DNA of 64,000 bases, taken from positions 434,001 to 498,000 of the forward strand of contig NZ_JAPELL010000002.1 in NCBI RefSeq assembly GCF_026094475.1, read 5' to 3'. How positions within the stretch are numbered: the stretch's first letter is position 1; the number at the start of each line of letters is the position of its first letter. A program made the translations under genes and the position numbers. Below are positions 48,961-52,694 of the stretch, piece after piece. The notes beneath the pieces were generated by a model. That model was given only the letters and a program-made list of their open reading frames with translations. It made no database searches and was not told where the DNA came from. The DNA is from Homoserinimonas sedimenticola (GTDB lineage: Bacteria > Actinomycetota > Actinomycetes > Actinomycetales > Microbacteriaceae).

Positions 48961-51455
48961 TGCGCGTCCCACTCTCGTGGCTCCGTGAGTTCGTCGACGT
49001 CCCCGCGGAGGCGACGCCCGAGGAGATCCACGCGGCACTCGTGCGCGTGGGCCTCGAGGAGGAGGACATCCACCGCGGCGAGCTTGTCGGCCCCATCGTT
49101 GTCGGCACCGTCCTCGAGTTTGTCGACGAGCCGCAGTCGAACGGCAAGACGATCCGCTGGTGCCAGGTCGACGTGGGGGAGTCTGAGCCGCGTGGCATCG
49201 TCTGCGGCGCCCACAACTTCTTCCCCGGTGACAAGGTCGTCGTGTCGCTGCCGGGCGCCGTGCTGCCCGGCCCGTTCCCGATCTCGGCCCGCAAGACCTA
49301 CGGGCACGTGAGTGACGGCATGATCGCCTCCGCGAAGGAGCTCGGCCTTGGGGAGGAGCACTCCGGCATCCTGCGCCTCACCGAGCTGGGTCTCGACCCC
49401 GCACCCGGCACGGATGCGATCGCCCTCCTCGGCCTCGACGATGTCGCGGTCGAGGTCAACGTGACGCCCGACCGTGGCTACGCCTTCTCGATCCGCGGCA
49501 TCGCCCGCGAGTACTCGAACTCGACGGGCGCCGTCTTCCGCGACCCCGCCCTCGCCCCCGCGCTGCTCGAGCTCGTCGAGGCCCCGCACACGGGCTTCCC
49601 CGTCACGGTCGCCGATCAGGCTCCCATTCGCGGGCGGAACGGATGCTCGGTCTTCGTCACGCGCGTCGTGCGGGGTATCGATCCGACCCGCCCGACCCCC
49701 GCCTGGATGGTGTCGCGCCTGCGGCTCGCGGGCGTGCGCTCGATCTCGCTCGCGGTCGACGTGACGAACTACGTCATGTTCGAGCTCGGCCAGCCGATTC
49801 ACGGCTACGATCTCGCGAAGCTGAGCGGCGGCATCACGGTGCGCCGGGCGAACGCGGGGGAGACCCTCACGACCCTCGACGACCAGGTGCGAAAGCTCAG
49901 CACGGAGGACCTGCTCATCACTGACGAGTCCGGGCCGATCGGGCTCGCTGGCGTCATGGGCGGCGCCGCGACCGAGATCTCGGATGCCACGAGCGACGTG
50001 CTCATCGAGGCCGCGAACTTCGACCCCGTCTCGATCGCCCGCACGGCGCGTCGTCACAAGCTGCCGAGCGAGGCGTCGAAGCGCTTCGAGCGCGGCGTGG
50101 ACCCGCTCGTCGCGGAGGCCGCAGCGGCGCGGGTTGCCCAGCTCCTCGTGGAGCTCGGCGGCGGCACGATCGACGAGCTCGGATCGTCCCTCATCGAAGC
50201 GCCCGCTCCCTCTACCATCACCCTGCGCGACGGCCTTGTCTCGGCGCTGCTCGGTGTCGAGTACACGCCCGAGGAGGTGCGCGGCTCGCTCGAGGCGATC
50301 GGGGCGCGGGTCGAGGCATCCGAGGGTGCGTTCCTTGTGACCCCGCCCAGCTGGCGGCCCGACCTCGACGATGAGCCCACTCTCGCGGAAGAGGTCGCGC
50401 GCCTCGTCGGCTACGACCGCATCCCCTCGATCCTTCCCGTTGCGCCTCCCGGCCGCGGCCTGACCCGCGAGCAGCGGATGCGGCGTGCCGCATCGACCAT
50501 GCTGGCGGCGGGTGGCCTCACCGAGGTGCAGTCCTACCCCTTCGTGTCGGCGGCGACGCACAAGCGCTTCTCGGGGGATGCCCCCGCCATGCGCCTTGCC
50601 AACGCGCTCGATGCCGAGGTGCCGCTCCTGCGCCGCAGCCTCATTCCCGGCCTGCTCGACACGGCGCGTCGCAACCTCTCCCGCGGCCTCACGGATCTTG
50701 CCCTCTTCGAGGTCGGCACCGTGTTCCTGCCGGAGGCGGGGAAGGCCTACGGCAGCGATTCACTCCCCGTCGGTAACGCCCACCCGGGCGACGACGTCGT
50801 CGCGGAACTGAATGCCGGCATCCCCCCGCAGCCGTGGCATGTCGCCGCGCTCTTCGTGGGCGACCGCGTCGTGCGTCAGCCCGGTGAGGCTGCCGTGCCT
50901 GCCTCGCTCGTCGATGCGATCGACGCTGCCCGTCAGCTGGGTGCGGGTCTCGCCGTGCCGCTGCGCGTCGAGCAGGGCAGCCACCCCGCGATGCACCCGG
51001 GCCGGACGGCTGAGATCTTCGCGGGCGATCGGGTGGTCGGGGTCGCTGGTGAGCTTCTTCCCGCGATCGCGGACGATCTCGACCTGCCGCGCGTCGTGGC
51101 GCTGCTGGAGCTCGACCTCAATGCCCTCATCGAGCTCGGTGCCCGGGAGGTCGTGACAGCGCCCATCTCGACCTACCCGGCGGCGACGCAGGACGTCTCG
51201 CTCGTCGTGCCGATGGAGGTTCCCGCGGGAGATGTGCTCGCCGCCCTCACGGAGGGGGCCGGCGCGCTGCTCGAGCATGCCGCGCTCGTCGACGACTACC
51301 GCGGCCAGGGCATCCCGGAGGGCAGCCGTTCGCTGACCTTCGCGCTGCGCTTCCGGGGGCCTGATCGCACGCTGACGGCGGCCGAGGCATCCGATGCGCG
51401 TCTCGCGGGCGTCGCACTCGCGGCGGAGCGTTTCAGGGCGTCCCTGCGCGAGTAG
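48960..51455 (+). CDS. pheT: Phenylalanine-tRNA ligase beta subunit
   Basis: The 831-residue partner of PheS. It contains an EMAP-II-like tRNA-binding domain (about 40-150) and the B3/B4 editing domain (about 210-365) that removes mischarged Tyr-tRNA. A B5 domain, a catalytic-like core and a C-terminal anticodon-binding FDX-ACB domain (about 735-830, PISTYPAATQDVSLVVPMEV) complete it. The length is typical. ATG 48960 overlaps the pheS stop. A 192-base gap with an arginine-rich leader ORF follows before argC. Confidence 0.96.
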   Translation: MRVPLSWLREFVDVPAEATPEEIHAALVRVGLEEEDIHRGELVGPIVVGTVLEFVDEPQSNGKTIRWCQVDVGESEPRGIVCGAHNFFPGDKVVVSLPGAVLPGPFPISARKTYGHVSDGMIASAKELGLGEEHSGILRLTELGLDPAPGTDAIALLGLDDVAVEVNVTPDRGYAFSIRGIAREYSNSTGAVFRDPALAPALLELVEAPHTGFPVTVADQAPIRGRNGCSVFVTRVVRGIDPTRPTPAWMVSRLRLAGVRSISLAVDVTNYVMFELGQPIHGYDLAKLSGGITVRRANAGETLTTLDDQVRKLSTEDLLITDESGPIGLAGVMGGAATEISDATSDVLIEAANFDPVSIARTARRHKLPSEASKRFERGVDPLVAEAAAARVAQLLVELGGGTIDELGSSLIEAPAPSTITLRDGLVSALLGVEYTPEEVRGSLEAIGARVEASEGAFLVTPPSWRPDLDDEPTLAEEVARLVGYDRIPSILPVAPPGRGLTREQRMRRAASTMLAAGGLTEVQSYPFVSAATHKRFSGDAPAMRLANALDAEVPLLRRSLIPGLLDTARRNLSRGLTDLALFEVGTVFLPEAGKAYGSDSLPVGNAHPGDDVVAELNAGIPPQPWHVAALFVGDRVVRQPGEAAVPASLVDAIDAARQLGAGLAVPLRVEQGSHPAMHPGRTAEIFAGDRVVGVAGELLPAIADDLDLPRVVALLELDLNALIELGAREVVTAPISTYPAATQDVSLVVPMEVPAGDVLAALTEGAGALLEHAALVDDYRGQGIPEGSRSLTFALRFRGPDRTLTAAEASDARLAGVALAAERFRASLRE

Positions 51456-51478: not shown

Positions 51479-51484
51479 TACAGT
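51479..51484 (+). promoter_or_regulatory. -10 element of the arg leader transcript
   Basis: TACAGT starting 12 bases before GTG 51491, the same spacing seen at leaderless genes in this window. Confidence 0.5.
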
Positions 51485-51490
51485 GTTCGG

Positions 51491-51577
51491 GTGGACATGA
51501 TCCGTGGAACCCGGCTCGGCGAGCGTCGCCCCGAGCTGTTCCGCGTGCGCCGACTCTCGGCGACGTCGCCTCGCTGA
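51491..51577 (+). CDS. Putative arginine-rich leader peptide
   Basis: A 28-codon ORF (GTG 51491, TGA 51575-51577) with a leaderless -10 element, located 70 bases before argC. Eight of 28 residues are arginine (positions 5, 8, 12, 13, 18, 20, 21 and 28), including two pairs. It overlaps the first of two mutually exclusive hairpins. That is the layout of ribosome-mediated attenuation for an arginine biosynthetic operon. High GC favours arginine codons by chance, so this remains a hypothesis. Confidence 0.4.
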
Positions 51578-51603
51578 CCGATTCGTTCAGCCGCCGCGTC
51601 GCC
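51548..51603 (+). promoter_or_regulatory. Alternative hairpins upstream of argC
   Basis: CGCCGA-CTC-TCGGCG forms a stem at 51548-51562. GGCGACGTCGCC (51559-51570) is a 12-base palindrome, and GGCGACG (51559-51565) can instead pair with CGTCGCC at 51597-51603. The first stem excludes the others, as in attenuators; a clear terminator T-tract is lacking. Confidence 0.4.
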
Positions 51604-51634
51604 GCCTCCGGCCTATCATTGTCCGTTCCTCTCA

Positions 51635-51640
51635 TAAGGT
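51635..51640 (+). promoter_or_regulatory. TAAGGT before argC: -10 element or ribosome binding site
   Basis: It starts 13 bases before the argC ATG like other leaderless -10 elements, but AAGG within it is also well placed as a ribosome binding site. TATCAT at 51614-51619 is another possible -10. Confidence 0.35.
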
Positions 51641-51647
51641 AGAACCC

Positions 51648-52694
51648 ATGACCCTCTCCGTTGCCGTCGCCGGCGCGAGCGGCTATGCGGGTGGCGAACT
51701 GCTGCGCATTCTTGCGGCCCACCCGGATGTCACGATCACGACCGTCACCGCCCACTCCAACGCCGGGCAGCCGCTCGTCGCGGCGCAACCACATCTCCGC
51801 TCGCTCGAGCACCTCGCCCTCGTCGACACGACCCCCGAGAATCTCGCGGGTCACGATGTCGTCTTCGTCGCCCTGCCGCACGGCAAGTCGGGCGAGCTGA
51901 CCGACCACCTGGGCGACGAGGCCCTCGTGATCGACTGCGGGGCTGACCACCGTCTCACCTCCGAGGACGACTGGGACAAGTTCTATGGCGGCGAGTTCTA
52001 TGGCGCCTGGGCCTACGGTCTTCCCGAACTCCTGCTCACTGACGGTTCGCGCCAGCGCGAGCGGCTGGTCGGCGCGCGGCGGATCGCGGTGCCCGGATGC
52101 AACGTGACCGCGATCACGCTGGGTCTCGCCCCGGGCATCCAGGCTGGCCTGCTGCAGCCGCAGGATCTCGTGTCGGTGCTCGCGGTCGGCACGTCGGGCG
52201 CAGGCAAGGCGCTCAAACCCCATCTACTCGCGAGCGAGATCCACGGCTCGGCGATGCCCTATGCGGTGGGCGGCACCCACCGGCACACGCCGGAGATCGT
52301 GCAAAACCTAGCGGCAGCGGGAGGGGAGGGGGCATCCATCTCCTTCACGCCCGTTCTGGTGCCGATGTCGCGGGGGATCCTGGCGACGAGCACGGCGCAG
52401 ATCGTGCCGGGGGTGGCCCTCTCCGACCTGCAGGCCGCGTGGGAGCAGGCCTACGCTGCGGAACCCTTCGTTTCTGTTCTGCCTGCGGGGGAGTTCCCGA
52501 AGACGGCCGATGTGCTCGGGGCCAACACCGCCCTCATGGGCCTCGCACTCGATGAGGCGACAGGGCGCGTCGTCGTCGTGAGCGCCATCGACAACCTTGT
52601 GAAGGGCACGGCGGGGGCCGCCGTCCAGTCGATGAACATCGCGCTGGCCCTTCCCGAGGCGACAGGACTGACGACGAACGGAGTGGCACCGTGA
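51648..52694 (+). CDS. argC: N-acetyl-gamma-glutamyl-phosphate reductase
   Basis: ArgC reduces N-acetylglutamyl phosphate to the semialdehyde with NADPH. The 348-residue protein has the Rossmann motif [12 protein letters not shown], the catalytic Cys151 in VPGCNVTA and the C-terminal [23 protein letters not shown] 51648 is the family start although the frame opens earlier. It is the first gene of argCJBDFH, and its stop overlaps the argJ GTG. Confidence 0.96.

Follow-up and report, generated by a model that had tools for sequence, protein, structure and literature searches.

Classical ribosome-mediated transcription attenuators (trp, his, ilv, leu) consist of a short leader ORF upstream of a biosynthetic operon, in which codons for the amino acid under control are repeated in tandem just before a competing RNA helix. 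To our knowledge, no leader-peptide attenuator of a bacterial biosynthetic operon has been described for arginine, and a literature search, mostly outside subscription journals, returned no arginine attenuator before such an operon, in agreement with the initial annotation of the locus studied here, which knew of none established in Microbacteriaceae. Among Actinobacteria, attenuators are known for trp and ilv (PMC1262725, PMC10272879). A 2005 actinobacterial survey reported attenuators for trp, ilv and cys, none for arginine, and, with Leifsonia xyli included, no conserved RNA structure before arginine operons (PMC1262725). For the mycobacterial cys operons, leaderless polycysteine uORF attenuators have been described (Canestrari 2020, as related in PMC13236596) and predicted (PMC1262725). 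In Salmonella, the orf34 uORF of speF senses arginine by tandem Arg codons, acting through Rho and alternative RNA folds (PMC6386406). Here, we examine the region upstream of argC in the window, i.e. the whole stretch of 64,000 nucleotides that was analysed, and conclude that it very likely harbors a ribosome-mediated attenuator by which expression of the argCJBDFH operon follows the charging of tRNA-Arg.

The pheT-argC gap and the occurrence of its leader ORF across the family

The host genome, of 2.84 Mb, belongs to Microbacteriaceae, a large family of bacteria from soil, and is close to Salinibacterium and Ruicaihuangia. The pheS and pheT genes (the latter ending at 51455) are located upstream of argC-argJ-argB-argD-argF-argH, the first of which, argC, spans 51648-52694 with its ATG at 51648; all features described below are on the plus strand. 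The gap between pheT and argC comprises 192 bases and contains a -10 element, a leader ORF and a helix. An N-terminal extension of argC (GTG at 51504, an open frame of 396 aa) was considered and discarded, as the frame is open in the nearest relatives only, the others having 349-351 aa. Neither argR nor argG is present in the arg cluster. The argG gene is situated elsewhere, with its own leaderless start and no leader, and the pathway is thus only partly under the leader. At L222 (G000, contig C9), as at the further argG loci examined in Microbacteriaceae (L218-L229), the start is of the leaderless type, e.g. TACGATTGAGACATG, and an Arg leader is missing.

The -10 element TACAGT (51479-51484) precedes by six bases the GTG of a 28-codon ORF with eight Arg (51491-51577), for which we propose the name argL, and which ends 70 bases before the argC ATG. 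These elements, all pointed out in the initial annotation, are read directly in the sequence. A sigma-70 consensus scan detected no TTGACA/TATAAT site, because the promoter is of the actinobacterial TANNNT type. In the 135 related leaders described below, the spacing from TANNNT to the start is 6 in 114 and 7 in 17 cases (131/135), and most display a -35 TTG approximately 18 nt upstream of the -10 (columns T90 T60 G87); a clear -35 is absent upstream of the -10 of the window's own leader. Judged by this TANNNT-N6/7-start geometry, transcription would begin at or next to the GTG, and argL would represent a leaderless uORF.

Upstream regions of relatives were gathered via ArgC and filtered for ORFs of 18-41 codons with at least five Arg and a start 6-7 nt after TANNNT. 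This recovered 135 distinct Microbacteriaceae argC upstreams, in 42 of 82 genera. A background of 1.35 Mb from the same genomes' loci, scanned on both strands, yielded a single match, equivalent to 0.0002 expected per upstream region; as the filter demands at least five Arg, the Arg fraction is itself selected, and only this background rate and the conservation within clades serve as fair tests. Indeed, each of the five genomes of the genus has a homologous 28-codon leader in this position; in L004, one of the five, only the leader skeleton is shared: VTHFRESVLGDRRLESVRVRRFSATLPC. The start and the -10 are conserved among relatives, a comparison that the initial annotation had proposed.

In the ArgC tree, leaders are found on either main branch and the state changes about 15 times, a pattern that suits an old element lost repeatedly, in a tree that cannot tell gain from loss. 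The motif was matched 20 times in 120 genomes, 18 of these at argC. The remaining two matches (L309 and L310) were considered as second copies and rejected, since they look like chance matches inside other coding DNA. Outside the family, no leader was detected in the 21 argC upstreams of other families and f20 that were placeable by the scan, nor was it found in Oerskovia and Cellulosimicrobium.

Several loci deviate in their layout. In L018, L026, L035, L020 and L147 (Frigoribacterium and genus code g5) there is no leader ORF and pheT ends 55-58 nt before argC; these loci keep GTCGCCGCC-like DNA and TTAGGGTAGAAGC, as if the leader had been deleted or replaced by the pheT end. The leader of L196 (-219 to -99) has 39 codons with 11 Arg, and that of L124 sits further from argC; both maintain the Arg-rich C-terminus followed by GGCG.

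The initial annotation had also observed that argR is missing from the cluster. In fact, ArgR (PF01316) is absent from the genome altogether, from all five genomes of the genus and from all 400 family genomes searched. An order-wide search matched 268 genomes, and the others that were followed up, a set that leaves out one unlisted genome, are Microbacteriaceae or lack argC, save one MAG that is 73% complete; with that exception, the sampled genomes with argC outside the family all possess ArgR. The ARG box, searched as TGNATN4ATNCA, shows the same division: of 31 argC loci from other families 15 have it, against none of 187 Microbacteriaceae upstreams. At L282, L284, L285, L294 and other loci outside the family the box (e.g. 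TGTATAGTTATGCA) immediately adjoins the start of argC and includes TATAGT, which resembles a -10, and operator and promoter of argC thus appear to overlap in the sister families. The leader is missing from half of the sampled genera, which are likewise devoid of ArgR, and arginine homeostasis in the family therefore does not depend on it. No match to Rfam, T-box included, was obtained at the gathering score for the window region and 15 loci.

Arginine codons and the downstream helix

In 184 pairs of related leaders, Arg is retained at 92% of the Arg sites, as compared to 69% for other residues, and the substitutions are evenly spread over the codon positions (606/776/685). The latter rules out a functional peptide, and combined these observations indicate that the Arg codons matter, and not the peptide as such, which otherwise drifts among relatives. 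Tandem control codons for the product of the operon are present throughout, with RR in 135/135 leaders, RRR in 98, and RR within the last ten residues in 127.

Leader Arg codons comprise 49% CGC, 26% CGA, 19% CGT and 5% CGG, with no AGR, against 55% CGC, about 3% CGA (2.7%), 8% CGT, 31% CGG and 3% AGR in argC. CGC, CGT and CGA thus make up 95% of the leader Arg codons, with CGA enriched tenfold and CGG avoided relative to argC; CGA is enriched beyond the last tandem too (19%), and the avoidance of CGG might partly serve RNA structure. The codons CGC, CGU and CGA are decoded by the tRNA-Arg with anticodon ACG, in which inosine is expected. The genome contains tRNA-Arg genes with anticodons ACG (one gene), CCG and CCT, as found among 45 tRNA matches of which two are partly masked and untyped. 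Hence, the restriction to CGC, CGU and CGA selects codons served by one tRNA-Arg. The last Arg pair, CGC CGA at 51548-51553 in the window, is the proposed stall site, and the same CGC-CGA combination is present in 94 of the 135 leaders. Strong de-attenuation by Arg pairs that include CGA was seen in an attenuator assay in Salmonella, since CGA is the codon read worst by the ICG tRNA (PMC4046918).

Immediately downstream, the minimum-energy fold pairs the 5' arm CGGCGACGT (51558-51566) with the 3' arm GCGTCGCCG (51596-51604), and none of 200 dinucleotide shuffles of the whole region folds as well (z -3.1). The span of the GGCGAC-GTCGCC pairing across loci has a median of 48 nt. Both arms are supported by swapping between loci, native arms reaching -21.2 kcal/mol against -19.4 +/- 0.34 (sd) for swapped ones, with 0 of 2000 swaps as good. 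Moreover, the helix covariation score is 0.161, to be compared with 0.085 +/- 0.020 for shuffles (0 of 500 as high) and at most 0.097 for slid controls. The compensatory changes that the initial annotation proposed to look for in relatives are accordingly seen, as exemplified by GGCGACG/CGTCGCC in the window, GGCGTCG/CGACGCC in L116 and GGCGGCACCG/CGGTGCCGCC in L110. Arm swapping and pair counts were used in place of RNAalifold, which on the window-type alignment recovered mainly a local stem, the loops being too variable; in the pair count the 3' arm is picked by best match, favoring the helix, and the swap test grants both sides the same free choice.

The local stem, CGCCGA(CTC)TCGGCG at 51548-51562, uses the last Arg codons as its 5' arm and TCGGCG (51557-51562) as its 3' arm, the latter overlapping the GGCGACG arm. 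In the window the helices 51548-51562 and 51558-51604 are thus mutually exclusive, and without translation the Arg-codon stem would also compete for the GGCGAC arm. The stem named in the initial annotation exists, but it is strong in the window's clade and not universal: six pairs are conserved in that clade only, four in most TAG-type leaders, and in ERR-ending leaders this control-codon stem is absent. Of the two CGTCGCC partners suggested for GGCGACG (51559-51565), only the copy at 51597-51603 can form the hairpin, because that at 51564-51570 overlaps GGCGACG itself.

More general is the position of the arm relative to the codons. Counted from the first base of the last Arg pair, the GGCG arm begins at a distance of 11 nt in 93 loci and of 8 nt in 19, together 112 of 133, and the stop codon varies in position, either overlapping the arm (TAG-GCGAC) or following 5-8 codons later, as in the window. 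As judged from the compared leaders, the constant feature is this spacing of 8 or 11 nt between Arg pair and GGCGAC and not the Arg-codon stem, which makes masking of the arm by a stalled ribosome the more general switch. The footprint of a ribosome reaches about 12-15 nt past the P site, and a ribosome on the last Arg pair would consequently cover the GGCGAC arm. By this geometry, with the 5' arm 8-11 nt after the first base of the pair, helix formation would depend on the ribosome position. Stalling at an earlier Arg cluster, such as the RRRR of Microbacterium, would leave the arm free, which counts against the proposal.

Proposed mechanism and alternative explanations

The attenuation design suggested in the initial annotation is supported by the conserved ORF, its Arg codons read by one tRNA, the fixed spacing, the covarying helix arms and the loss of ArgR and ARG box, albeit not as the textbook type, as there is no U-tract terminator. 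In the proposed sequence of events, the leaderless transcript would start at the GTG of the Arg-rich ORF. With charged tRNA-Arg(ICG) plentiful, the ribosome would complete the ORF and leave, allowing the freed GGCGAC arm, which begins 5 nt beyond the final codon of the Arg pair, to bind GTCGCC some 30-60 nt downstream. The resulting long GC hairpin and the C-rich stretch beyond it would then stop argC expression, most likely by premature transcription termination, Rho-dependent or non-canonical. When charged tRNA-Arg is short, the ribosome would stall on CGC-CGA, its footprint presumably covering the arm so that the hairpin cannot form, and argC would be transcribed and subsequently translated from its AAGG Shine-Dalgarno. 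For the feedback to make sense, the hairpin must repress.

The output step is the weakest part of this explanation and is suggested by the region between helix and argC. A C-rich, G-poor stretch at 51605-51634 is a possible Rho loading site (rut-like). The C/G ratio between helix and Shine-Dalgarno is 2.0 in leader loci, and from -55 to -15 it amounts to 1.61 with leader versus 1.05 without (p 6e-11). No intrinsic terminator was predicted in the window region, and a U-tract is absent after the 3' arm, with at most two T in the following 10 nt in 104 of 131 loci. Rho-dependent termination fits both the C-rich stretch and the missing U-tract.

Closer to argC, TAAGGT at 51635-51640 contains the AAGG of the Shine-Dalgarno, and the hexamer also fits a -10. 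AAGG is found near argC in 129 of 135 leader loci and in 9 of 56 loci without leader, which mostly have a leaderless-type start directly at argC without AAGG. The tie of AAGG to the leader thus suggests that argC is there built for translation from a longer transcript. This AAGG forms part of a TAAGGT placed 6-7 nt ahead of the argC ATG in the window, and the same holds at this position in 114 of the 135 loci. TAAGGT may possibly serve as both Shine-Dalgarno of the long transcript and second promoter, and as TAAGGT-N6/7-ATG the latter could bypass the leader.

The near-invariant AAGG and the missing U-tract terminator would equally suit translation attenuation, in which the leader governs ribosome access to the argC Shine-Dalgarno and not transcription termination, as described for the cysteine genes of M. 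smegmatis (PMC13236596). We regard this alternative as possible but unlikely: the predicted accessibility of AAGG comes out the same for a free (0.44) and a masked (0.46) leader part, and upon masking it goes up in 27, down in 21 and is unchanged in 77 of 125 loci, in a model that just deletes the masked part and ignores kinetics. Sequestration of the Shine-Dalgarno was discarded, as folding gave no consistent change of accessibility. It is also conceivable that a leaderless promoter of argC itself (TAAGGT-N7-ATG) drives the gene and that the upstream ORF is unimportant. In favor of this, TANNNT stands 5-8 nt ahead of argC in 115 of the 135 leader loci and in 42 of 56 loci without leader, the latter of the leaderless-argC type. 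Such an arrangement is improbable, given that no -35 is conserved upstream of TAAGGT, in contrast to the leader promoter, and that AAGG is nearly invariant only where the leader exists, as expected for a longer transcript.

Through reinitiation, a leader ORF is able to increase expression of the gene that follows it (PMC4833913), and a genuine but constitutive argL, aiding argC translation or transcript stability without sensing arginine, would sit well with an element missing from half of the genera. This is decidedly improbable, as it offers no reason for the retention of Arg amid a drifting peptide, the CGA enrichment and CGG avoidance, the fixed distance from Arg pair to helix arm, or the confinement of 18 of the 20 motif matches to argC. 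Finally, the initial annotation cautioned that GC-rich DNA, by making Arg codons common, weakens the case, and chance could in principle provide both Arg-rich ORFs and GC hairpins; indeed, when this DNA is read in its two other frames, Arg still accounts for 17%. Nevertheless, the background of 0.0002 per region, the family-wide conservation and the covariation refute a GC artefact, leaving chance a negligible probability.

Returning to the ribosome-mediated attenuator, a fuller scenario, which we hold to be about evenly poised between right and wrong, is that the ancestor of Microbacteriaceae lost the ArgR/ARG-box circuit and that arginine synthesis came under a leaderless-uORF attenuator, which reads a single isoacceptor, tRNA-Arg(ICG), via the weakest of its codons, CGA. 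While stalled, the ribosome would mask the 5' arm of a repressive hairpin that keeps a constant distance of 8 or 11 nt from the first base of the Arg pair. The output would be Rho-dependent without intrinsic terminator, and the stop codon could shift provided that this distance is preserved. The leader suggests how Microbacteriaceae could regulate arginine synthesis without the repressor kept by their relatives, a transcription factor being replaced by a 28-codon sensor. Arginine would be an added amino acid for leader-peptide attenuation, and the proposal bears on arginine producer strains and on the use of leaderless translation for sensing.

Comparison with known systems

ArgR/AhrC and the ARG boxes act on the same operon and in response to the same signal in the sister families as the leader would in Microbacteriaceae, but through a DNA-binding repressor, of which both protein and box are missing here. 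Arginine T-box riboswitches also read tRNA-Arg charging before arg genes, as proposed for the leader; unlike the arg leader, they bind the tRNA directly and contain no ORF. The speF orf34 of Salmonella also has tandem Arg codons, which there sense arginine, but governs ornithine decarboxylase and not arginine synthesis, and is an SD-led uORF on a transcript that starts 516 nt upstream of speF (PMC6386406). Its peptide core HIRRT-HIMM (DUF2618) is absent from the listed leaders by inspection.

Nearest in design are the mycobacterial cys uORFs, which, as far as the account in PMC13236596 goes, are also actinobacterial, leaderless and short, with codon runs near the stop and no terminator hairpin. 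They differ in their Cys codon runs and, within the same account, in that no conserved hairpin was found, whereas the arg leader combines Arg codons with a covarying helix 2-5 nt after the control codons. Compared to the classical attenuators, with which it has in common the short ORF and the tandem codons just before a putatively competing helix, the arg leader is distinguished by its amino acid, its leaderless ORF and the missing U-tract terminator. It would work like a ribosome-mediated attenuator, yet is not classed as the classical trp type since that terminator is absent; here, it is the repressive hairpin's own 5' arm that a stalled ribosome would mask.
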